A stretch of 64,000 nucleotides of DNA, from positions 868,001 to 932,000 of the forward strand of contig JAKCFJ010000002.1 of NCBI GenBank assembly GCA_025041175.1, given 5' to 3'. The notes beneath the pieces are model-generated. The model saw nothing but the letters and a program-made list of their open reading frames with translations. It had not been told where the DNA came from and made no database searches. The position numbers were made by a program, and so were the translations under genes. Every line of letters begins with the position of its first letter. Within the stretch, counting starts at the first letter, position 1. The stretch is from Halobacteriales archaeon YIM A00010. Its GTDB lineage: Archaea; Halobacteriota; Halobacteria; Halobacteriales; Haloarculaceae. Positions 1-44,621 of the stretch are shown piece by piece.

Positions 1-108
1 GCCATCCAGAAAGAGGAACATCCCGAAGAGAAAGAACAGAAGCGCAAACCAGAGCTCTGCGAGCGGTAGCCTGAGCGGCTGGCCGACTAGTGATACGACG
101 TCAGTCAT
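1..108 (-). CDS. cydB: Cytochrome bd oxidase subunit II, N-terminus (partial)
   Basis: Only the first 36 codons lie in the window; the gene runs off the left edge. The translated start MTDVVSLVGQPLRLPLAELW leads straight into a hydrophobic helix, as expected for CydB, the second membrane subunit of the cytochrome bd quinol oxidase. Its ATG overlaps the end of cydA by 8 bases, so the two are translationally coupled in one operon. The identity rests on this position and the helix; too little is visible for domain evidence. Confidence 0.75.
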   Translation of the reverse strand, partial: MTDVVSLVGQPLRLPLAELWFALLFFLFGMFLFLDG

Positions 109-1525
109 TCGTGGTCACCTCAGATTCCGGTGGCGGTGATCGGGGCTGATCGGCGAGGTCGTCGTGGGGCGGCGGTCCCTCCCTGATAATCCGACTGACG
201 ACGTAGGTGTACAGTCCGAGCAACAACGCGTACCCGGTGGCGAACCCGAGAAGGGTGACGGTCGCTTCGGTGGCTGTCAATCCGGGTGAAACGCTGGCTG
301 AAGTCTTCATGACGCCTTGGATGACCCAGGGCTGGCGCCCGACTTCTGTAACGATCCACCCCACCTCGACGGCAACGAAGCCCAGCAGTGACGATAGCAT
401 TAGAGCCTTGTGGAGGAGATCGTCCTCGAACAGTTCGCCGCGCCACCAGCGATACGCACCCCACAGTGCGAGCAGAACGAACCAAAAGCCGAGCGCGACC
501 ATGATCCGGAACGCCCAGAACACGATCGCTACCGGGGGTGCTTGCGTCGAGAACGACGCAAGTCCGCGTATCGTCGCCTGTGGGTCCCCACCGCTCGCAA
601 GCCACGAGGCACCGCCCGGGATGCCGACGCCGAAGAGACTCTCGGTTCGGGGGTTCAGTAGATCAGCAACGTTCGTGGGGAACGCGACGATGTACTCCGG
701 AACGGACGAGTCGGTCTCCCAGACGGCCTCCATTGCGGCGAACTTCTGCGGTTGGGTCTCCGAAACGTGGCGAGCGTACGCGTCGCCCTGGATCACCTGC
801 AACGGCGCCGTGATGAGAAGCGCCACGAGCGCGATCTTGAGCGTCGTTTCCCAGAAGCCGATGTGTTGGATCGAGTAGCCCCAGACGTGGTGCCGGAAGA
901 CGTAGTAAGCGGCGACACCAGCCATGAACAAGGCGACCGCCTCGACTGCAGCATTCTGCATGTGGACGAACATGTATGGAAATCTTGGATTGAGGTAGGC
1001 CGCGAGTGGATCGGTGAGTTTCACGACGCGGTGGCCGTTCTCGACAACGATCTCGAAGCCACGCGGGGTCTGCATCCACGAGTTCGCGATGAGAATCCAA
1101 ACGGCTGAGAGCCACGTTCCAAGCCCGACAGCGATACTCGATAAGAAGTAGAGACGGTCAGACACGCGGTCACGGCCGTAGACGAAAATGCCGAGGAACG
1201 TCGCTTCGAGCATGAACGCCATCATTCCTTCGAGGGCGAGTGGTCCACCGAACAGTTCGCCAGCAGTCGTCGAGAACGCCGCGAAGTTGGTTCCGAACTC
1301 GAATTCGAGAACGAGCCCCGTTACTGTGCCGACCACGAAGCTCACCGCGAAGATGCGCGTCCAGAACCGGCGGAGCTGCTCATAAATCGCCTCACCCGTA
1401 CGAACCTCTTTCCACGTGAAGTAGACGAGGAACGGGGCGAGACCCATACTCATCACGGGAAAGATGATGTGAACGATCGTGGTGAGCGCAAACTGAAGCC
1501 GGCTGGCGGTGACGGGATCAACCAT
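101..1525 (-). CDS. cydA: Cytochrome bd quinol oxidase subunit I
   Basis: Membrane subunit carrying the haems of cytochrome bd, which oxidises quinol and reduces oxygen at the cytoplasmic membrane. The sequence shows the family start SRLQFALTTIVH, the EFGTN motif, WMQTPRG, the Q-loop stretch KFAAMEAVWET, and the GRQPW motif near the C-terminus, with about nine hydrophobic helices. An upstream ATG at 1579 would add 18 residues, but starting at 1525 puts the haem-ligand histidine at residue 19, as in the E. coli protein, so 1525 is preferred. At about 474 residues the Q loop is short. It is followed by cydB with an 8-base overlap. This high-affinity oxidase is usually used at low oxygen. Confidence 0.95.
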   Translation of the reverse strand: MVDPVTASRLQFALTTIVHIIFPVMSMGLAPFLVYFTWKEVRTGEAIYEQLRRFWTRIFAVSFVVGTVTGLVLEFEFGTNFAAFSTTAGELFGGPLALEGMMAFMLEATFLGIFVYGRDRVSDRLYFLSSIAVGLGTWLSAVWILIANSWMQTPRGFEIVVENGHRVVKLTDPLAAYLNPRFPYMFVHMQNAAVEAVALFMAGVAAYYVFRHHVWGYSIQHIGFWETTLKIALVALLITAPLQVIQGDAYARHVSETQPQKFAAMEAVWETDSSVPEYIVAFPTNVADLLNPRTESLFGVGIPGGASWLASGGDPQATIRGLASFSTQAPPVAIVFWAFRIMVALGFWFVLLALWGAYRWWRGELFEDDLLHKALMLSSLLGFVAVEVGWIVTEVGRQPWVIQGVMKTSASVSPGLTATEATVTLLGFATGYALLLGLYTYVVSRIIREGPPPHDDLADQPRSPPPESEVTTND

Positions 1526-1778
1526 CGAAACCACCGCCTTGTCGGCTGTCTTCCACGAGGTGCGGGCGACCGGAACCATGTCGGTTTGCCATCAGTGGCG
1601 CTATGCTGGGTGCCCAGGTCAATCGACGGTGGATTCCTATCGAGAGAGAATCCGCCCAAGTGGTCCATCAATGGGATGCGTAGTTCTGCGGAGCTGGTTT
1701 GTTCCCGGATCGTTTTCACACCCCGCTGTTCGAGCCGTAATCGGGTAGCATATCCCGGGTAACTTCCAACATCGGATA

Positions 1779-2153
1779 ATGGTGAGCGATTCAGTGTCAT
1801 CCGAGGACGCTCCCTCGTTGCAGGATGTCCTCGATGCGCTGGATGATCCCGACTGTCGGAAGATCCTCCGTGAAACAACTGAACCCATGACTGCGAACGA
1901 ACTCATCGATGCCTGTGACATCCCCAAATCGACAGTGTATCGCAAACTGGAACTCCTCGCCCGAGCCTCGCTCGTCCACGAACGGGACACGATCAATCCC
2001 GGGGGTGGGCGGATTACGCGATACGAGCGGGATTTCGACGATGTGATCGTCTCGATCGACGAAGACGGTTTCTCAGTGACAGTCGAACGTCCGCCACGGA
2101 GGGCAGACGAACGTCTCGCAGACATCTGGTCGAAGATGGGTGATGAACTATGA
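1779..2153 (+). CDS. Winged-helix transcriptional regulator
   Basis: A 124-residue DNA-binding protein. Residues about 12-75 form a winged helix with the recognition segment CDIPKSTVYRKLELL, followed by a basic wing (GGGRITRYERDFDD) and an acidic tail. It fits the ArsR/HTH_20-like haloarchaeal regulators. The stop codon overlaps the start of the next gene by four bases (ATGA), so it is co-translated with a small membrane protein, a pairing that suggests membrane-state or redox sensing. It lies divergent from cydA, about 250 bases from the cydA start, so it may control the bd oxidase; that is inference. Confidence 0.75.
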   Translation: MVSDSVSSEDAPSLQDVLDALDDPDCRKILRETTEPMTANELIDACDIPKSTVYRKLELLARASLVHERDTINPGGGRITRYERDFDDVIVSIDEDGFSVTVERPPRRADERLADIWSKMGDEL

Positions 2154-2431
2154 CGTGGGTGGGAACGGCCATCGTCGCCGTCAAGACAGTCATTCTGCTT
2201 TTGGGGAGCGGTATCACGTACATTGCCTACAAAGCCTATCGGCGTACAGGTGCCCCTTCTCTCCGCGTGCTCGGTATTGGGTTCGGCGTTATTACGTTCG
2301 GTGCTCTTTTCGCAGGCGTCATGCATCAACTCCTCTCCGTCTCTCTCGAAATGGGTGTCTTGATCAACAGCATCCTCGTTGCAATCGGGTTCGCGATCAT
2401 CATGTACTCGCTCTATCTCGAACGCGGATGA
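2150..2431 (+). CDS. Small integral membrane protein (DUF7521-like)
   Basis: A 93-residue protein with three hydrophobic helices at about residues 5-25, 40-60 and 65-88, and no catalytic motif. It overlaps the upstream winged-helix regulator by four bases, so the two form a unit. Length, topology and pairing resemble a haloarchaeal membrane family often found next to HTH genes, probably DUF7521; I recall this assignment and cannot test it here. The function is unknown. The first origin-type repeat begins 18 bases after the stop codon. Confidence 0.7.
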   Translation: MTWVGTAIVAVKTVILLLGSGITYIAYKAYRRTGAPSLRVLGIGFGVITFGALFAGVMHQLLSVSLEMGVLINSILVAIGFAIIMYSLYLERG

Positions 2432-2448
2432 CGACGCCGGAGAGGCGC

Positions 2449-2561
2449 CGCTATCGATTTGTTGTGTGAGAAGCCACCACGCCCTGTGGGCGCCCCTATC
2501 GACTTGTTCCGGGATCGAACGAGGGCGTCGACAGCACCCTCGCACCCCTATCGATTTGTTC
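2449..2561 (+). repeat. Three origin recognition box-like repeats 3' of orc1
   Basis: Three copies of the box CACCCCTATCGATTTGTTC lie between the membrane-protein gene and the 3' end of orc1. They are at 2449-2463 (CGCTATCGATTTGTT, partial), 2493-2509 (CCCCTATCGACTTGTTC) and 2543-2561 (full match). All have the same orientation as the copies on the far side of orc1. No other gene fits in this stretch. They probably bind the adjacent Orc1 protein. Confidence 0.8.
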
Positions 2562-2571
2562 GGAGAAGGAG

Positions 2572-3897
2572 CTACCGATCGAGTTGTGCATTCACGACGG
2601 TACGGAGTTCGTCGTCGTGAACGTCGTCCAGCCGCGAATCCTCCCGAAGCGTCTCGATGATGGTCTTTGGATTCTCGCCGAACGTGAACTCGAGATAACT
2701 GCCCGAGTGGGGTCCCTGACTCTTCCGCTCCGTCTCGACCAACGAATACGTGGTGAGTTCCTTCATCTTGTTCACGTACGTCTCCTGGTAGTACTGTTCG
2801 GAACCAAGGGTTCCCGTCAGATACTGATACACTCGGTACCCGAGCGGGCTTTTCGCCGCTCCAGTCCCGGTTTCCCGAGCAACTGCAGCAGTTGCAAAAA
2901 GACAGAGCTTCTTCTGGGTGCTTATACCACGGGTCACTTCTAATACGCGATTCTTCTCGACCTTGTCTTGGGCTTCTCGAATGTGTTCCTCACGAACCTG
3001 ATCCGCGTTGCCTTTTTCAGCGATCGATCCTGCTGTTCGCATTAGGTCGATCGCCTTCCGTGCGTCCCCGTTAGTTTGTGCAGCGAACGCTGCTGCCAGT
3101 GGGATTACGTCGTTACTGAGTGTGCCTTCGTGGAAGGCGTCCTTCCGAGCCCGAAGAATCTCTCGAAGCTGGTTTGCGTCGTAGTCGCTGAAATGGACGT
3201 CCTCGGGCGTGAACGAACTGAGCGCTCGACTGCCCACGTTCTTCATCATCTTCGTATCGTTGGTGATGGCGGTTACCGAGACCTGGGCGGTGATCTCGTC
3301 TGTACTACCAGCGCGCGAGAGTTGGTACAGAAGACGGGAGAAGGCGGGCTCATCCTTATCCCGACGACCGACGAGCATATCGAGTTCGTCGAGGATGAAC
3401 ACGACTGTGTCGTAGTGTTCATTGATAAGGCGGTAGAGTTCTCGCCATTTCTTCTTGTTCGGGATGCCGTGTTCTGGGACCTCGACAGTCGTTCCGCTGT
3501 CGTTTGCGACTTTTCGGGCGAGCTCGTAGACGGCTGAGCCGAGGGTTCCAACGTTCTGGCAGTTCATCTGGATCACCCCGAATCGGATATCGCGGCTTTC
3601 GCAGAGTTCGACAATGTTCTCACAAACAGCGTTGATGATGAGTGATTTCCCAGTCCCTGACGGGCCGTAGAGGAAGAGATTCGGCGGGCGTTCGTTACTA
3701 ATTGCAACGCGAAGATGCTGGGTGATATCGGTGAGCTGAGTGTCGCGACCGACGATGCGTTCTTCGTCGACGATCTCGTTCGGTTCGAGAAGAGATCGAT
3801 TCTTGATGAGACTCGCGGCTTCTTCCTGCTCGAGGATGAGATCTTTAATAGAACCCGTGGAATCGGGAGAGTCCTCAGGACCAGGATCCGGTGGCAT
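2572..3897 (-). CDS. orc1: Orc1/Cdc6 replication initiator
   Basis: AAA+ initiator ATPase that binds origin boxes, melts the origin and helps load the MCM helicase. The protein is about 441 residues. It has Walker A GPSGTGKS at about 78-85, Walker B with FILDELDMLVG, a sensor region around VTAITNDTKMM, and a C-terminal winged helix (from about residue 320) that contacts DNA. A GTG at 3909 would add four residues; ATG 3897 is preferred because a TATA-like TTTTTAGTA lies about 24-32 bases upstream, the spacing of leaderless haloarchaeal transcripts. Origin-type repeats flank the gene on both sides, so it is very likely the cognate initiator. Haloarchaea often carry several orc1 genes, so this may be a secondary or replicon-specific origin. 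Confidence 0.96.
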   Translation of the reverse strand: MPPDPGPEDSPDSTGSIKDLILEQEEAASLIKNRSLLEPNEIVDEERIVGRDTQLTDITQHLRVAISNERPPNLFLYGPSGTGKSLIINAVCENIVELCESRDIRFGVIQMNCQNVGTLGSAVYELARKVANDSGTTVEVPEHGIPNKKKWRELYRLINEHYDTVVFILDELDMLVGRRDKDEPAFSRLLYQLSRAGSTDEITAQVSVTAITNDTKMMKNVGSRALSSFTPEDVHFSDYDANQLREILRARKDAFHEGTLSNDVIPLAAAFAAQTNGDARKAIDLMRTAGSIAEKGNADQVREEHIREAQDKVEKNRVLEVTRGISTQKKLCLFATAAVARETGTGAAKSPLGYRVYQYLTGTLGSEQYYQETYVNKMKELTTYSLVETERKSQGPHSGSYLEFTFGENPKTIIETLREDSRLDDVHDDELRTVVNAQLDR

Positions 3898-3920
3898 ACT
3901 CCACTCCACTCTATCAGGAT

Positions 3921-3949
3921 ACTAAAAAGTTCCCCTGTCGATTTCTTTT
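3921..3949 (-). promoter_or_regulatory. orc1 promoter with a degenerate origin box
   Basis: Reading toward orc1, a TATA-like TTTTTAGTA occupies 3921-3929, 24-32 bases before the ATG at 3897. Directly upstream, 3932-3949 reads CCCCTGTCGATTTCTTTT on the plus strand, a diverged copy of the origin box. Its place next to the TATA element suggests that Orc1 may bind its own promoter and regulate itself. A second weak match (CCGACGATTTGTT) is at 4011-4023. Confidence 0.5.
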
Positions 3950-4067
3950 CTACCGGTACGGCACTCAGAGGACGAGAATCAAAGAGTTCCATCATTCTGC
4001 TTTCGGACCTCCGACGATTTGTTAGCGAGAGGGGTGGACGGGGTGACGAGACGTAAGGACACCCTCA

Positions 4068-4086
4068 CACCCCTATCGATTTGTTC
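4068..4086 (+). repeat. Origin box 1 (left arm)
   Basis: Exact copy of CACCCCTATCGATTTGTTC, preceded by ACACCCTCA as at several other copies. It points toward the AT-rich core. Confidence 0.85.
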
Positions 4087-4222
4087 AATCCACAGAGGAA
4101 AGGGTGATCGGATCCCGAACGAACTGTTGTTGCTTCTAGGCTACGAACTCCTAGGCCACGATTGGCGCAGTATTGAGAGTGACTCTCTATATCTTCTCTT
4201 CTTTCTTCTAGTGCTAGTCACT

Positions 4223-4297
4223 AGTCTACTAGAAGAACGTAGTCTGCTAGAAGAACGTAGTCTACTACAAGAATACACCCGTCTACTAGATGAACAC
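4223..4297 (+). repeat. Tandem 18-bp iterons in the origin
   Basis: Three head-to-tail 18-bp units start at 4223 (AGTCTACTAGAAGAACGT), 4241 (AGTCTGCTAGAAGAACGT) and 4259 (AGTCTACTACAAGAATAC). A fourth diverged unit lies at 4281-4297 and abuts the next origin box. The unit differs from the origin box, so it is a second repeat class. It could bind a different factor or assist melting. Confidence 0.8.
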
Positions 4298-4315
4298 ACC
4301 CCTATCGACTTGTTC
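4297..4315 (+). repeat. Origin box 2 (left arm)
   Basis: CACCCCTATCGACTTGTTC, one base different from the consensus, directly following the iteron series and pointing toward the core. Confidence 0.85.
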
Positions 4316-4452
4316 AAATCAATCAATGCTGTTCGATCTATGTACGTGTTCCCACTTAAAGAGGATCCAACGAGAGTATCGTTACGTGGACGGAGGTAGC
4401 TCCCTTACATCCAATACTAGTTCTTGTACTGACTTCCGGTATGGATACGCTC

Positions 4453-4468
4453 CACTATCGATTTGTTC
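4453..4468 (+). repeat. Origin box 3 (left arm, shortened)
   Basis: CACTATCGATTTGTTC keeps the ATCGATTTGTTC core but lacks the full run of C. It is the innermost left box, at the edge of the AT-rich core. Confidence 0.7.
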
Positions 4469-4626
4469 TATATCTATGCCTCCCCTGGAAACACCAGTAT
4501 TCGACGCAATAAAGAACGAAGAATACAGAGAGATATCCCGGACGCGTTATTTCCCATGACTTCCATCCTATTGCGTTCTATTATGACTTCCATCACGTTT
4601 TACTCCCCCGTGTACTCTCTGTACCA

Positions 4627-4645
4627 GAACAAATCGATAGGGGTG
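4627..4645 (-). repeat. Origin box 4 (right arm, inverted)
   Basis: GAACAAATCGATAGGGGTG on the plus strand, the exact reverse complement of the consensus, and followed by TGAGGGTG, which mirrors the flank of box 1. Confidence 0.85.
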
Positions 4646-4771
4646 TGAGGGTGGTCCCGAAGACGATACCACGACAATCACAGACAGTTCATCAAGGAGA
4701 CCGAGTTCCAGATTCTACTCTGTATCTTGGAGATCCTCGGCGTGGATCGATACGGCTCGCGCTTTCCCAAC

Positions 4772-4790
4772 GAACAAATCGATAGGGGTG
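4772..4790 (-). repeat. Origin box 5 (right arm, inverted)
   Basis: GAACAAATCGATAGGGGTG, an exact inverted copy of the consensus. Confidence 0.85.
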
Positions 4791-4816
4791 ACTCTGTGTA
4801 TGCACGTGGTTCCCGC

Positions 4817-4835
4817 GAACAAGTCGATAGAGGTG
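4817..4835 (-). repeat. Origin box 6 (right arm, inverted)
   Basis: GAACAAGTCGATAGAGGTG, two bases different from the consensus. It is the outermost right box, about 75 bases from the stop codon of the EamA transporter. Confidence 0.75.
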
Positions 4836-4910
4836 CGCCTCCACAACCACTCGATTGGCTGCCGAACAGCAACACCGGGTTCACAGCCACGAAAAGCGGG
4901 CGATTTCCGG

Positions 4911-5948
4911 TCAGTCCCCAGAACAGACAGCAGTGTCGTCGTCGAATCGTCCGTCGGAGCCGTCACTATCAGTAACCGGGCGCTTGGGATTGCCACGCGC
5001 ACCGACCGGGTGACGAACGCGGTGGCGCGCCGCGACAGCGGCCGACCGGGCGAGATCCGGGTAGTCCAGCGTCTCGCTTCCGATGACGGCGAACCCGGCG
5101 AAAATAACGAGGAAGCCGGCGACAGCGAGTCCCGAGATCGACTCGCTGAGCAACGCCCAGCCGCCGACCGACGCGACGACCGGGACGACGTAGAAGACCA
5201 GGTTCGCGCGGATCGCGCCAGTCGCGTCGATGAGGTTGAAGTACGTGACGTACGCGACGCCACCGGCGAAGACGCCGAGATACGCGACCGCGACGACGCC
5301 TCCTGGTGTCCACACAATGCTCGCCATCGACTCGCCGGCCACGGCGCTCAGCAGGTGCGCGAACACGGCAGCGAGCGGGAGTCCCCACGCTGTGCGGACC
5401 GACGGAGAGAGTTCGCCGTCAGCCCACCGGATGAGGACGCTCCCGAGCGCACCGGATGTCGCAGCGGCAACCAGCAACGCCTTGCCGACGACGCTCCCAC
5501 CCAGCAGGTTCGCCGGGTCGGGGCTGACAACGAGCGCGACACCCACCAGGCCGAGCGCCATCCCGAGGGCACCGCGGCGTGAGAGGCGCTCGTCAGAGAC
5601 GAGCGCCGCCGCAAAGACTGGCGTTAGGATCGGGTTCAAACTAGCGATGATCGAAGCAACGCCGCTGGTGACGTACTGCTGACCGACGAAGATCAGGGCG
5701 TTCGTTACCCCGACCACGACCAGGCCGGTCGCGACGATACCGGCAACGTCACCACGAGTCCGCGGTCGCAACGCAGCGGGCGAAAACTGCCAGACAGCGT
5801 ACCCACCGAGCACTAGCGTCGCGACGTCAAACCGTAGCGCCAACAGCAACAGCGGCGGGATGTGCGCCAGGCCGGCCTTCGCACCCACGAACGTGCCGCC
5901 GAAAAACACGCTCGTGACCCCAAAGAAGGCGACTGTTCGCCGGTCCAT
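4911..5948 (-). CDS. EamA/DMT-family transporter
   Basis: A 345-residue membrane protein with ten hydrophobic helices in two EamA repeats (about residues 5-140 and 150-285). The first ends with ASIIASLNPILTPVFAA and the second with ANLVFYVVPVVASVGGWALL, the paired signature of drug/metabolite exporters. The C-terminal 50 residues are a charged, probably disordered cytoplasmic tail that reaches toward the origin. The substrate cannot be read from sequence. It is divergent from the regulator at 6178, which may control it. Confidence 0.9.
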   Translation of the reverse strand: MDRRTVAFFGVTSVFFGGTFVGAKAGLAHIPPLLLLALRFDVATLVLGGYAVWQFSPAALRPRTRGDVAGIVATGLVVVGVTNALIFVGQQYVTSGVASIIASLNPILTPVFAAALVSDERLSRRGALGMALGLVGVALVVSPDPANLLGGSVVGKALLVAAATSGALGSVLIRWADGELSPSVRTAWGLPLAAVFAHLLSAVAGESMASIVWTPGGVVAVAYLGVFAGGVAYVTYFNLIDATGAIRANLVFYVVPVVASVGGWALLSESISGLAVAGFLVIFAGFAVIGSETLDYPDLARSAAVAARHRVRHPVGARGNPKRPVTDSDGSDGRFDDDTAVCSGD

Positions 5949-6177
5949 TCAGCGACTGACCTCCGATGCATCCGTCCAGGCTGGCCGCGCGACGGGCGCG
6001 GTGCGCGACCGGTCGACTGACTCACGCATTCCACGCTGTTGTACGGGTTGGGGACGTATAGATCCGTTCAGAAAACGTTGCGCAGCGAGAAACCGCCGCG
6101 CACACCGCTGCGTCGCTGTCCTATGAAAGGATTTCACGGTGCGAAAACAGTTTCCGGACGGGCGTCTGACGACCGGC

Positions 6178-7362: not shown

Positions 7363-8459
7363 AGTAGCCCGTCCGAAGTTCGGGTGTGTGGAGCCACCGG
7401 ACGGGGCGAGAACGGTATTACGGTTTGTGCTTGTCTGCAGCCCAGTCCGCTAGCAGCAGTTGTAGCGCAGGGAAACGCGTAGTTCATCTTGGGCATCGTT
7501 AGACAGAATTAATTAGAAATATAATATTATTTATTTTTTACATTGGTTATATATTGTGTGTCGATTATCTTCGTGTCTAAAGCCATTTTGTGGGTGTATA
7601 CGACCGTTATCTGCCATCAAACGTGGATAGGGGTCGATGGATGGGCAGAGTGGTCGTGTGTCATAGACGGGTACCAGTACTGAAATGACGAAAAGACGCC
7701 TAATACCAGCATTTACTCGCGTATTGTATGAACCCCAATCAAAATTTCTCACTATCTGATCATCGACGATCCGTTCGACTACGCCGCCAAAAGTATAATA
7801 ACTAATATGGCGTCGCCGCCTCGGACACAGTGATGCACTCGTGCTATCAAACGCTGTGGCGTCTCCGGAAAACGGACGACGAGACGGAAACCGGTGAACA
7901 CCGCAGCAGCCGATGCGTGTGGCGATGTGCTTGGCGCCGATTCAACCGTCCCCCGGACCGATAGCGTTACAACAGTACGCATGTAAGAAATCGTTCGACC
8001 AACTCTCGCGGGGGGCGCGAAGAGACGATCAGCAGTTGCACGTGCCGACAAGCCCAGCGGACTCGACAGAGGGAGCCACACTCCGTTCGGTGTCTCACGG
8101 GACACCGAGGACAACACCGCTGCGACGGAATCCGGGTCGCATGTAGCGACCACCGCGGCGATTCAGCGCACTGCTCCGGGCGTTCTATTATTCCCCAGCT
8201 GTTCTGTAATAGAGAACTCGGTGGTGTGCTACCCGAAGGTTCGTCTCCGTGAGCGATGTGAACCATCAGATATTTCTCGTTTCGGGGCGCGAGCGTCGCC
8301 AGTGCGGTTGTTGTGACGATCAGGCAATCAGCGGGGTGACGCTGTCTGTGTCGAAGAACGCGCTGTACAGCGTCAGTCAGAGGAAAAACTACTGGTCGAA
8401 TCGCCCATCCGTCAGTAGAGGATCCGATTTCATCGATCCGACAAATCCGTACAGCGACC
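7363..8459. other. Gene-free gap of 1.1 kb
   Basis: No convincing coding region on either strand. The stretch 7505-7555 is strongly AT-rich. An imperfect hairpin (GTTCTATTA and TAATAGAGAAC) lies near 8182-8218. Short open frames here lack haloarchaeal composition and look accidental. The gap may be decayed DNA next to the methyltransferase remnant. Confidence 0.5.
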
Positions 8460-9959
8460 CTATCGGACCGAAATTCCGGCGACCGTCGACGGCGGGAGTT
8501 CCGCGGTGAGGGACCCATCGGAGCCGACCGAGACGGCCAGAGCGGTGGCCGCGAACTCGTCGGCGTTGTCCGGGGTGACCGCGAGATCCGGTTCTTGATC
8601 CGCGAACAGGATCTCCGCGCTGACGCTCTCCTCGGTCGGAGCGTTGCCCTCGAGCGAGACCTCGACAGCGTGTTCCTCGAGGCAATCGAGGTTCGTGACA
8701 GTGACGTAGGTCTCCTCGTCGGCGATCGAGGCAGAGGCGCGGACCAGTTCGAGGTCGTCATCGTCGGTGGCACGCGTGGGCGCGGAGACGGAGGTCCGGA
8801 CGGCTTCATTGCCCTTGTGTGGGGCATAGAGATCGAAGACCCGGTAGGTCGGGCGCGCCCACGCGCCGGTTTCGTCGGTCTCGACGAGACACTGGAGAAC
8901 GTTGACAGTCTGGGCGATGTTCGTCATCGTCACGACGTCGCTGTGATCGTTAAACACGTCGAGAACGGCCGCCGCCGAGAGCCCGTCGAGGACGGTCCCC
9001 GGCTGCTCGAGACCGGTGTCGGCCGTGGCTTCGGGGTGCCAGGAACCCCACTCGTCGACGATGACACCGACGTCGCGCGTCGTGGCGACCGAGTTGATCG
9101 CAGCGGCCATCCGCTCGATGTGGCGTTCCATCTCGAGGGCCTCGGCGAAAAATTCGTCGTACTGCTCCTCGTCGGCATCGGAGACGGTCATCGTGCGGCC
9201 GTAGTAGTGGTGTAGCGTGAGGTGGTCGAGCGGGAACGCTTGGCCCCACGGGGCGCCCGCAACTTCCTCGAGGAAACGGCGGTTCCACTCGTGGCCCTCG
9301 TAGCCACAGGCGATGAGTTCGAGGTCGTGATCGAGCAGTAGATTGTCCGTGGTTCCAACGTAGGTCGCAAAGCGACGGTACTCGCGTGCGTACTGTTCGG
9401 GGGTCATCCGGCCGCCACACCCCCAGTTCTCGTTTCCGAGTCCCCAGTAACTGACGCCGTAGGGCTCTTCGTGGCCGTTCTGTCGGCGCCGGTCTGCCAG
9501 TTCGGTGTCGCCGTCGTAGTTACAGTACTCGACCCAGTCTGTGGCCTCCTGTGGATCACCGGAGCCGACGTTCGCGGCGAGATACGGCTCTGTGCCGATG
9601 CGCTCACAGAGTTCGAGGAATTCGTCGGAGCCGAAGGCGTTCGACTCCTCGGGCGTCTGTTCGGGTCCCTGCGCCCAGAAGAGGTTGCGACGGCGCGGTC
9701 GTTCCTCTTGCGGTCCGACACCGTCCTCCCAGTGGTAATCGTCGGCGAAACAGCCGCCGGGCCACCGGAGAACGGGAAGGTCGAGATCCTCGAGCAGGGA
9801 AACTGTGTCCTCGCGGAAACCGCTCTCGTCCGCGCTGTCGCTGTGCCAGATCCCGCCGTAGATACAGCGACCGAGGTGTTCGGCGAAGTGGCCGTGGGCT
9901 TCGGGTGCGATTTGGTCGATACTCGCCGCAGTATGAACCGTTACGCGCGCGTCAGTCAT
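8460..9959 (-). CDS. Cytoplasmic GH51 alpha-L-arabinofuranosidase
   Basis: Removes terminal arabinose from arabino-oligosaccharides. The 499-residue protein has the GH51 start GHFAEHLGRCIYGGIW, the barrel motif LPVLRWPGGCFADDYHWEDG, the acid/base glutamate in GLGNENWGCG (about E177) and the nucleophile in VDEWGSWHP (about E303), then a C-terminal beta domain. It has no signal peptide, so it acts inside on imported oligomers. ATG 9959 gives the normal family start; the open frame extends to 10037 without support. A TATA-like element 24-34 bases upstream agrees. It is divergent from the sugar ABC transporter operon, and a secreted paralogue lies at 15837. Confidence 0.95.
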   Translation of the reverse strand: MTDARVTVHTAASIDQIAPEAHGHFAEHLGRCIYGGIWHSDSADESGFREDTVSLLEDLDLPVLRWPGGCFADDYHWEDGVGPQEERPRRRNLFWAQGPEQTPEESNAFGSDEFLELCERIGTEPYLAANVGSGDPQEATDWVEYCNYDGDTELADRRRQNGHEEPYGVSYWGLGNENWGCGGRMTPEQYAREYRRFATYVGTTDNLLLDHDLELIACGYEGHEWNRRFLEEVAGAPWGQAFPLDHLTLHHYYGRTMTVSDADEEQYDEFFAEALEMERHIERMAAAINSVATTRDVGVIVDEWGSWHPEATADTGLEQPGTVLDGLSAAAVLDVFNDHSDVVTMTNIAQTVNVLQCLVETDETGAWARPTYRVFDLYAPHKGNEAVRTSVSAPTRATDDDDLELVRASASIADEETYVTVTNLDCLEEHAVEVSLEGNAPTEESVSAEILFADQEPDLAVTPDNADEFAATALAVSVGSDGSLTAELPPSTVAGISVR

Positions 9960-42919: not shown

Positions 42920-43804
42920 TCATAGCGACGCCCGTCGACCGTCGAACGGGGTGAACGATGCTGTATCGTCCGCGAACGGAACGACACCAGCGAGCGTTTG
43001 TCGGGCACGCGCCCCAAAGAGCTGTACGAACGACGTGACGCTCTCCCTCCTCAAAGCATCAGCGTTCACGTAGGTGTACCGAAGTCGTCCAACGAGCGAA
43101 TCGGCTGCGTCGGCTGAAGCTTTGGCTGTCGTCAGTTTCTCGCCAATCGTCTCGTAGTATCCGAGTCCCCCGTGACCAACGGCGTACTGGTTCGCGCGGA
43201 CGCCCCGAACGACGAGGGGTGTGGCGTCGTCGGGGAGATAATCGGCTCCAAGACGATCCGTTTCCGAGCCGAAATCGTCGGTAGTGGGAGCCTCGGAATC
43301 GATGGCTGTGGACGTTTTCGGTCGCTCGGACGATGCGTCCGGGGGAACGAGCTCAGCCCACGTTTGGCTCTCGGAGGTAGACGCCCGCAGTTTTTCGAGC
43401 CGGTCGGTCGACAGCAGTGGCCGCCACCGCTCCGGTGGTCGAAGCAGAGCCGCGCCGTCGACGACACTCTCGAACGTCTCGTATCCCAGACCATCCGCTT
43501 TGGCGCTGGCTGTTTCCGAAGGGAGCATCGGGCGAGTCGCGTGGAAAACGTCGACATCCCGGTCGAGAAACCGCTCGAATCCCTCACCAGTACCGACCGT
43601 GCTGATCGATAATGCAGCATCGTCCTGCCGAAACGGCGCGTCGAGATCGTCGGAAATGGGAGCAAGCATCCTGTCACGCGCGACGGTAACGGACGGAGAC
43701 GGCTTCCCGTCTACCGTCTGACTCAACCCGGCGACACCGGTCATAGCGGTGCCGGCTGCGATGAGGACGTCTCGGCGCGAAAGCGCTGAGATGCGTTGTG
43801 ACAT
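42920..43804 (-). CDS. Tat-exported PstS-like substrate-binding protein
   Basis: A 294-residue exported protein. The Tat signal is LSRRDVLIAAGTAMTGVAG (about residues 8-26), without a lipobox cysteine. The section STVGTGEGFERFLDRDVDVFHATRPML resembles the ligand loop of PstS-type phosphate-binding proteins, and YAVGHGGLGYYETIGEKL resembles their C-terminal lobe. No pst transport genes are nearby. Its start is one base after the Mn catalase stop, so the two are one operon. It may bind phosphate or another anion; the role is unclear. Confidence 0.7.
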   Translation of the reverse strand: MSQRISALSRRDVLIAAGTAMTGVAGLSQTVDGKPSPSVTVARDRMLAPISDDLDAPFRQDDAALSISTVGTGEGFERFLDRDVDVFHATRPMLPSETASAKADGLGYETFESVVDGAALLRPPERWRPLLSTDRLEKLRASTSESQTWAELVPPDASSERPKTSTAIDSEAPTTDDFGSETDRLGADYLPDDATPLVVRGVRANQYAVGHGGLGYYETIGEKLTTAKASADAADSLVGRLRYTYVNADALRRESVTSFVQLFGARARQTLAGVVPFADDTASFTPFDGRRASL

Positions 43805-43805
43805 A

Positions 43806-44621
43806 TCAGTTCACTTCGTTGTGCATCTCCTCGATGACGGTTTCGAGGTCCGCTTTTCCGCCACCGGGCTGATCAGAGAGGAAGGAGAACTCGCCCTTTC
43901 CGTCGGGGGATTCGCCTTGCGTCCACGGCTGCTCCGGATCGTCACGATCGCCACAAACCGTGGACATGAACTCGTAGTTGAATTTCTGATTCTCCTCCTC
44001 CTGGGGGAAGCTTCCGGGAATGGGCATGTGGTCTTCAAAGCATTCTTCGAGAACGACGCGCCATTGGTTCTGGTGCATGGTGTCACGAGCAATGAGGTAC
44101 GAAAGCATGTCCTTCATGCCGGGATCGTCCGTCATCTCCCAGAGGCGCGTCGCAAGGAGGCGGCCCGTCGATTCGGCCATCACGTTCGCGTACATGTCGG
44201 CCGCCATATTGCCGCTCGCGACGACGAAGTTGCCGCTAAACGGAACGCCGTTGCTGTCGACGGGCATCGCGTGGAGCCCGGCAGAAAGCGCTTGTCGGGG
44301 CTGACCGCTGTCCATCATGGCCGCGATGACCGAGTTCTGTCGCGCCCGTTCGCGGTCTTTTTCGGGTGCGCCCTGCAAATTCTTCGCAACCGCCGTCGCG
44401 AGCATCTCGATGTGACCGAGTTCCTCGGCGGCCGTCTCCATCAGCATCATCCGGAACTCGCTTTTCTCCGCGGGGACGGCAAACGCTTGAAACATGTACT
44501 GGAGCGCAACGCGCATCTCTCCCTCGACGCCGCCGATGGCCTGCTGAAGCATCTTCGCAAACTCGGGATCGGGTTCTTCGACTCGCACTTCGTACTGGAG
44601 TTCTTCGCTATGGTGGAACAT
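43806..44621 (-). CDS. Manganese catalase
   Basis: Breaks down hydrogen peroxide with a di-manganese site, in the cytoplasm. The 271-residue protein has the ferritin-like ligands in GGVEGEMRVALQYMFQAF, ETAAEELGHIEML and NVMAESTGRLLATRLWE with DTMHQNQW. Length is normal. A TATA-like AATATATACT lies about 40-50 bases upstream. The PstS-like gene follows after one base. It gives heme-free peroxide defence. Confidence 0.95.
   Translation of the reverse strand: MFHHSEELQYEVRVEEPDPEFAKMLQQAIGGVEGEMRVALQYMFQAFAVPAEKSEFRMMLMETAAEELGHIEMLATAVAKNLQGAPEKDRERARQNSVIAAMMDSGQPRQALSAGLHAMPVDSNGVPFSGNFVVASGNMAADMYANVMAESTGRLLATRLWEMTDDPGMKDMLSYLIARDTMHQNQWRVVLEECFEDHMPIPGSFPQEEENQKFNYEFMSTVCGDRDDPEQPWTQGESPDGKGEFSFLSDQPGGGKADLETVIEEMHNEVN

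Follow-up and report, generated by a model that had tools for sequence, protein, structure and literature searches.

Replication origins that lie beside an orc/cdc6 gene and carry family-specific boxes are a known kind in haloarchaea (PMC3528665; PMC4441112). Wu et al. (2012, PMC3528665) described families of such origins in which Orc and ORB type are linked, the rule for a family being 80% Orc identity. In Haloarcula hispanica, the downstream element oriC2D lowers the activity of oriC2, likely through binding of Cdc6E, and the effect rises with the number of boxes (PMC3936714). Dormant origins are also known in haloarchaea (PMC4595724).

The locus described here lies in a window of 64 kb (the whole stretch of DNA that was analysed; C2:868001-932000 of the 1.02-Mb contig C2). 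It is most probably an Orc1/Cdc6-dependent replication origin of plasmid type, which forms one mobile cassette with its own initiator. Like the origins of Wu et al. (PMC3528665), it has an Orc1/Cdc6 gene beside inverted boxes with C/G runs, an AT-rich region between the inward-facing boxes and a linkage between box and Orc family, the marks of an orc/cdc6-adjacent origin; further points in common are boxes that flank the gene on one side or on both, and spread with mobile DNA. By its sequence the cassette is probably a new family within this known kind. Among those plasmids of the 15 genomes of Wu et al. that were searched, none has a member of its Orc family at the 80% rule. The nearest Orcs on those plasmids are the sole Orc of pL131 and one Orc of pHLAC01; with 67% identity, a box CCCTCTATCGATGTGTTC and a different key base, they place the cassette outside their family (at least 80% Orc identity, box CCCTCTATCGATGTGTTC). 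The comparison with the oriCa and oriCb families of Wu et al. covered the plasmids of those genomes, none of which reached 80%. Of the species treated by Wu et al., H. salinarum (type strain DSM 3754) is the only one that appears among the loci listed in the genome scan. The conserved archaeal origin oriC1 with its ORB elements is alike in general design and initiator superfamily. The Orc of oriC1 type is, however, encoded by a different gene in this genome, for which C1:2343051 is the best candidate, with 37% identity to the Orc of the cassette. The latter scores 261.9 bits against the cut-off of 501 bits of NF001625, and judged on its Orc the cassette lies outside the oriC1 family. The exact box strings gave no relevant match in the running text of open-access literature, and no description of the recognition box and the built-in control boxes as a set was found in the same text. 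What this analysis adds is the complete cassette, its status as sole Orc1/Cdc6 locus on small plasmids, a one-base switch in the box relative to a sister family, and a promoter box. The features are as follows, in window coordinates.

2437-4858, no strand: full cassette with its downstream boxes, the orc1 gene, the promoter boxes and the origin, from blastn homology to related loci; the flanks differ
2446-2464, plus: downstream box 1, 3 mismatches (box search)
2491-2509, plus: downstream box 2, 2 mismatches (box search)
2543-2561, plus: downstream box 3, exact, directly past the orc1 stop codon (box search)
2572-3897, minus: orc1/cdc6 initiator gene, 441 aa from a conserved ATG (profile matches; start kept in relatives)
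3921-3930, minus: TATA-like promoter element of orc1, ACTTTTTAGT, about 29 nt 5' of the ATG (mean column conservation 0.976, 17 loci)
3930-3948, plus: degenerate box TTCCCCTGTCGATTTCTTT, candidate autoregulatory operator abutting the TATA element (conservation 0.98)
4006-4024, plus: conserved half box GACCTCCGACGATTTGTTA (conservation 0.885 vs 0.59 for spacers)
4068-4086, plus: origin box, exact (conservation 0.997)
4188-4215, no strand: conserved CTAG/purine tract, ACTAGAAGAAAGAAGA on the minus strand (conservation 0.826)
4219-4295, no strand: 20-nt repeat unit, four copies, spacing 18-21 nt
4297-4315, plus: origin box, 1 mismatch (box search)
4450-4468, plus: inner origin box, 2 mismatches (box search)
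4469-4626, no strand: AT-rich core of 158 bp with 44.3% GC, the likely site of unwinding
4627-4645, minus: inner origin box, exact (conservation 0.994)
4772-4790, minus: origin box, exact (box search)
4817-4835, minus: outer origin box with 2 mismatches; distance to the neighbouring box 45 bp, likewise in most relatives

The original prediction had seen an orc1/cdc6 gene of a possibly distinct initiator lineage next to the boxes, and both points held. The product matches TIGR02928 (4.5e-119) and, in Pfam, Cdc6_lid (1.8e-23) and Cdc6_C (8.5e-11), giving AAA, Cdc6 lid and winged-helix domains; its length is above the 300 aa expected, together with AAA+ and winged-helix domains, of the gene adjoining such an origin. 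The best matches among solved structures are 2v1u and 2qby, archaeal Cdc6/Orc1 homologues. An alternative GTG start at 3909 would give 445 aa (ORF 2572-3909, minus strand); the ATG at 3897 is the counterpart of the annotated start in a close relative. The own genome contains 16 above-cut-off matches to the Cdc6 lid family, and the nearest paralog is 44% identical. The distinct lineage is seen in a supported clade of its own (99/94), in identities of at most 44% to the other Orcs of the genome and in a separate box. It should be noted here that the own-genome paralogs OWN_L017 and OWN_L020 entered the Orc tree from the wrong strand, so that their rows are meaningless, and that the midpoint root is distorted; the conclusions are restricted to the clade around the window Orc.

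The 19-bp box CACCCCTATCGATTTGTTC occurs nine times in the window at up to 3 mismatches, with none expected (dinucleotide shuffles of the window gave no match at this threshold). Its 14-bp core has eight sites without mismatch in the 5.97-Mb genome (7 contigs), all at the cassette, and the scan of the whole genome of about 6 Mb revealed no box cluster elsewhere. Six of the nine boxes lie upstream of orc1, three facing three across the core, whose GC content of 44.3% compares with 61.3% for the window. The orientation is the one that had been described, plus on the left (4068, 4297, 4450) and minus on the right (4627, 4772, 4817). The other three boxes, past the orc1 stop codon (2446-2561), had been overlooked. 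Positions 4060-4086 and 4627-4653 form a perfect 27-bp inverted repeat, which includes the boxes 4068+ and 4627-. The inner box at 4450 deviates at two bases, a point against the reading as an origin. The gap between the inward-facing boxes is 81-136 bp in relatives, usually about 135 bp, as compared to 158 bp in the window. The 20-nt repeat expansion at 4219-4295, beside the CTAG/purine tract, is found in the window copy only among 17 aligned, being absent in 16 relatives.

A scan of GTDB species genomes found 28 loci with an Orc 78-94% identical, distributed over about nine families of Halobacteria. The carriers are Halalkalicoccus, Halogranum, Halogeometricum, Haloarchaeobius, Halobacterium, Haladaptatus, Halorubrum, Haloarcula, Halobium, Haloparvum, Halobellus, Halonotius, Natronococcus, Haloglomus, Haloquadratum, Natronorubrum, Halocatena, Natrinema, Halarchaeum and Halococcus. 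A motif search for the box beside orc1 homologues of other haloarchaea had been proposed as a check, and nearly all of the 28 loci keep the arrangement. In the reading direction of orc1, a typical locus begins with three forward boxes, followed by a core of about 135 bp and three reverse boxes; orc1 comes next, and about 14 bp past the gene a further three reverse boxes begin. A few loci have fewer or more boxes, and in Halalkalicoccus (L059) the downstream block is shifted by about 1.6 kb. In an alignment of 17 upstream regions, conservation is 87-99.7% in the box columns as against 59% in the spacers. The claimed archaeal origin design of inward boxes, AT-rich core and orc1 is kept in nearly all of the 28 loci, and on three complete plasmids the cassette forms the sole Orc1/Cdc6 locus.

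DNA homology between the window and related loci spans 2437-4858 and stops at the outer boxes, and by this measure the outer boxes delimit a self-contained mobile cassette of about 2.4 kb. The cassette is present on named complete plasmids. In three complete circular plasmids of 94,501, 118,989 and 135,207 bp it contains the only Orc1/Cdc6 match, and no other initiator is annotated on them, although the PLSDB gene tables are incomplete and could lack a Rep gene; the 119-kb plasmid has a DNA primase gene, which counts against our reading. This sole status is the best indirect support for the cassette as a working origin. Haloparvum and Halobellus have 5.8 kb in common at 100%, and each has 4.3 kb in common with Halonotius at 99.8%; Halogranum and Halobacterium salinarum DSM 3754 have 8.75 kb in common at 97.5%. 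About nine families are intermixed in the Orc tree, and the window Orc is 94% identical to that of Halalkalicoccus as compared to 89% for Halocatena pleomorpha, an inferred member of the window's own genus. In Halorubrum ezzemoulense (NZ_CP034941.1, 208970-213112) the orc1 of the cassette is apparently split by the insertion sequences IS1595 and IS701, and a sister-type Orc is found elsewhere on the same replicon. A viral source of the cassette was considered and is unsupported, since viral contigs gave 16 single isolated box matches without arrays, and phage records only a remote Orc (26%).

Cassettes of a sister family have an Orc 65-70% identical to the cassette Orc and the box CACCCCTCTATCGATGTGTTC, in which CGATTTG has become CGATGTG, a key change of T to G. 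Its carriers include many Natrinema and Haloarcula, the plasmid pHLAC01 of H. lacusprofundi and, as sole Orc, pL131 of N. pharaonis; the downstream boxes are mostly in the opposite orientation. In Natrinema zhouii cassettes of the T type and of the G type are both present. As one key base is changed together with a matching Orc group, box and initiator co-vary in the compared sequences. More distant Orcs go with the boxes CCCCGTCATCGA(T/A)GTGTAA, CCCCGTGTGCGATATGAA and CCCCGTTTTCGAGTTGTAA, which were assembled by eye from repeated 10-mers, without a motif program. A C run, a central CGA and one further arm recur in the boxes of all compared families. The Orcs of the two closest families show consistent differences at 56 positions, of which 11 lie in the winged-helix domain, six of these at 392-405. 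By its position in the domain this stretch would be the wing, and it offers a lead for specificity.

The promoter of orc1 carries a degenerate box. A matrix was built from relatives and run on positions 1-6000 and on C2. The box TTCCCCTGTCGATTTCTTT at 3930-3948 has the top non-canonical score within 1-6000, and only 20 of the 2.04 million positions of C2 score as high or higher, nine of them canonical boxes and one TTCCCCTGTCGATTTCTTT itself. A single strict pattern for the promoter element with this box matches in 22 of the 28 loci. Of 13 sister loci, 11 have a box of sister type, e.g. ATACACATCGATAGAGGTGG, directly before the sister TATA element AACACTTTT; the pattern is unmatched in the remaining two, and also in the pL131 and pHLAC01 loci. 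Position and spelling of the promoter box thus track the initiator family, with a sister-spelled box at the equivalent place, as expected for an Orc operator, and the degenerate box at the TATA element suggests a candidate site for orc1 autoregulation. The presence of one degenerate box on the orc1 TATA element in both families could be taken to mean that all the boxes are chiefly transcription operators of orc1 and its neighbours, with no origin present. We regard this as extremely unlikely: the canonical boxes are away from the promoter, the inward three-and-three arrangement around the AT-rich core is conserved, and small complete plasmids have no Orc1/Cdc6 locus other than the cassette.

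The boxes past the gene could serve another control. Three are present in the window. Haloquadratum J07HQX50 has a tandem run of seven with 53-bp spacing, and a plasmid of Haloarcula marina has seven, six of them at exact 47-bp spacing. Downstream arrays with the fixed periods 53, 47 and 42 bp (L080 6332-6650; L285, NZ_CP100410.1 88121-88356; L267 7237-7447) look like repeated duplication of one box unit. A cluster of ORB-like boxes directly 3' of the initiator gene is the defining arrangement of oriC2D, and in H. hispanica oriC2-cdc6E/oriC2D the origin-type boxes are likewise clustered directly downstream of the gene. The likeness noted here is one of arrangement; oriC2 is chromosomal whereas this origin is of plasmid type, and oriC2D has 11 boxes in 722 bp as against three here (up to seven, in tandem, in relatives). 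By this parallel, the downstream boxes probably titrate the initiator. In iteron-controlled bacterial plasmid origins, and in DnaA with datA, an initiator binds repeated boxes, while extra copies and a promoter site provide feedback. The working is similar and the initiator unrelated, and the comparison is an analogy only, with no claim of membership.

The original prediction had named boxes found widely away from orc1 genes as an outcome that would speak against it. The own genome showed none, and in 392 genomes of the order only a few clusters lack a cognate Orc. Those few mostly look like relics: G116 and G060 retain an Orc end of 65 and 68 residues, respectively, G045 lacks orc1 between the end blocks, and G256 and G076 have one transferred block in common. 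Orphan clusters were also considered as decoys or trans-acting origins, and most look like relics instead. On the chromosomes of G256 and G076 (L268, L269), more than 14 kb are about 96% identical across two families and carry the downstream box triplet only, without orc1. An inverted repeat, TTAACCAACAAA...GTTGGTTAA (L268 about 8462-8500, L270 about 8452-8495), recurs near relic clusters and some other Orc families. Two Halocatena species, both without an Orc of the cassette family, have a chromosomal pair of inward-facing boxes in the interval from the aRF1 gene to the ferredoxin gene, with about 200 bp from one box to the other (G227:C1:1682058-1682289, L042 1498-1735; G387:C1:2317127-2317369, L045); the boxes are kept, the intervening DNA has diverged, and the pair is absent from the other genomes of the genus searched with the box. 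The decayed copies without intact orc1 in other genomes raise the question of whether the window holds a functionless plasmid remnant of the same sort. Such decay is very unlikely here, as orc1 in the window is an intact gene with 94% identity to copies carried by complete plasmids, and all boxes are kept.

Whether the origin fires in its present replicon is a separate matter. C2 carries two other full-length Orc genes (43242-44411 and 181909-183207), both close to a repeated motif of their own. The contig therefore has at least three candidate origins, and the one in the cassette may be dormant. The raw cumulative GC skew of C2 has its minimum at 865.5 kb, 7 kb off the cassette at 872 kb; after detrending the minimum lies elsewhere, and the skew has a small amplitude. 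Of the three plasmids only one has its GC-skew minimum near orc, and GC and keto skews of C2 and the plasmids are noisy. The weak skew, which also counts against the main reading, the rival Orc genes and the haloarchaeal precedent (PMC4595724) fit a genuine cassette that is a recent passenger on C2, replicated from another Orc-linked site. We consider this sub-case of the origin reading quite possible, though on balance we do not favour it, for the boxes, core, promoter box and ORF are all intact whereas relics elsewhere lack orc1.

In the reading as a mobile origin with its own initiator, Orc1 from the adjoining gene would bind the six inward-facing boxes at 4068-4835 and open the AT-rich core at 4469-4626, where the helicase would be loaded. 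Through the degenerate box upstream of the TATA element, Orc1 may repress its own promoter, and the three boxes past the stop codon may soak up excess Orc1 and thereby limit firing. The cassette moves among plasmids, megaplasmids and genera, and a joint change of box and initiator would keep different cassettes compatible within one cell. A bolder and rather doubtful extension, offered tentatively, is that the 2.4-kb unit contains three graded classes of box, strong at the origin, weak as operator at the TATA element, and a downstream tandem array of variable box number, about three to seven, which sets plasmid copy number, and that the joint specificity switch of box and initiator defines incompatibility groups of haloarchaeal plasmids.

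The cassette would be a portable origin-initiator pair and a defined minimal unit. Since small plasmids carry it alone, the specificity of the origin, together with autoregulation and copy control through an archaeal Orc1, becomes directly testable. The sister pair, which differs in one box base and in a few Orc changes in the putative wing (392-405), would allow the specificity of the initiator to be tested by swaps. A further use of the boxes could be to group haloarchaeal megaplasmids by their likely compatibility.
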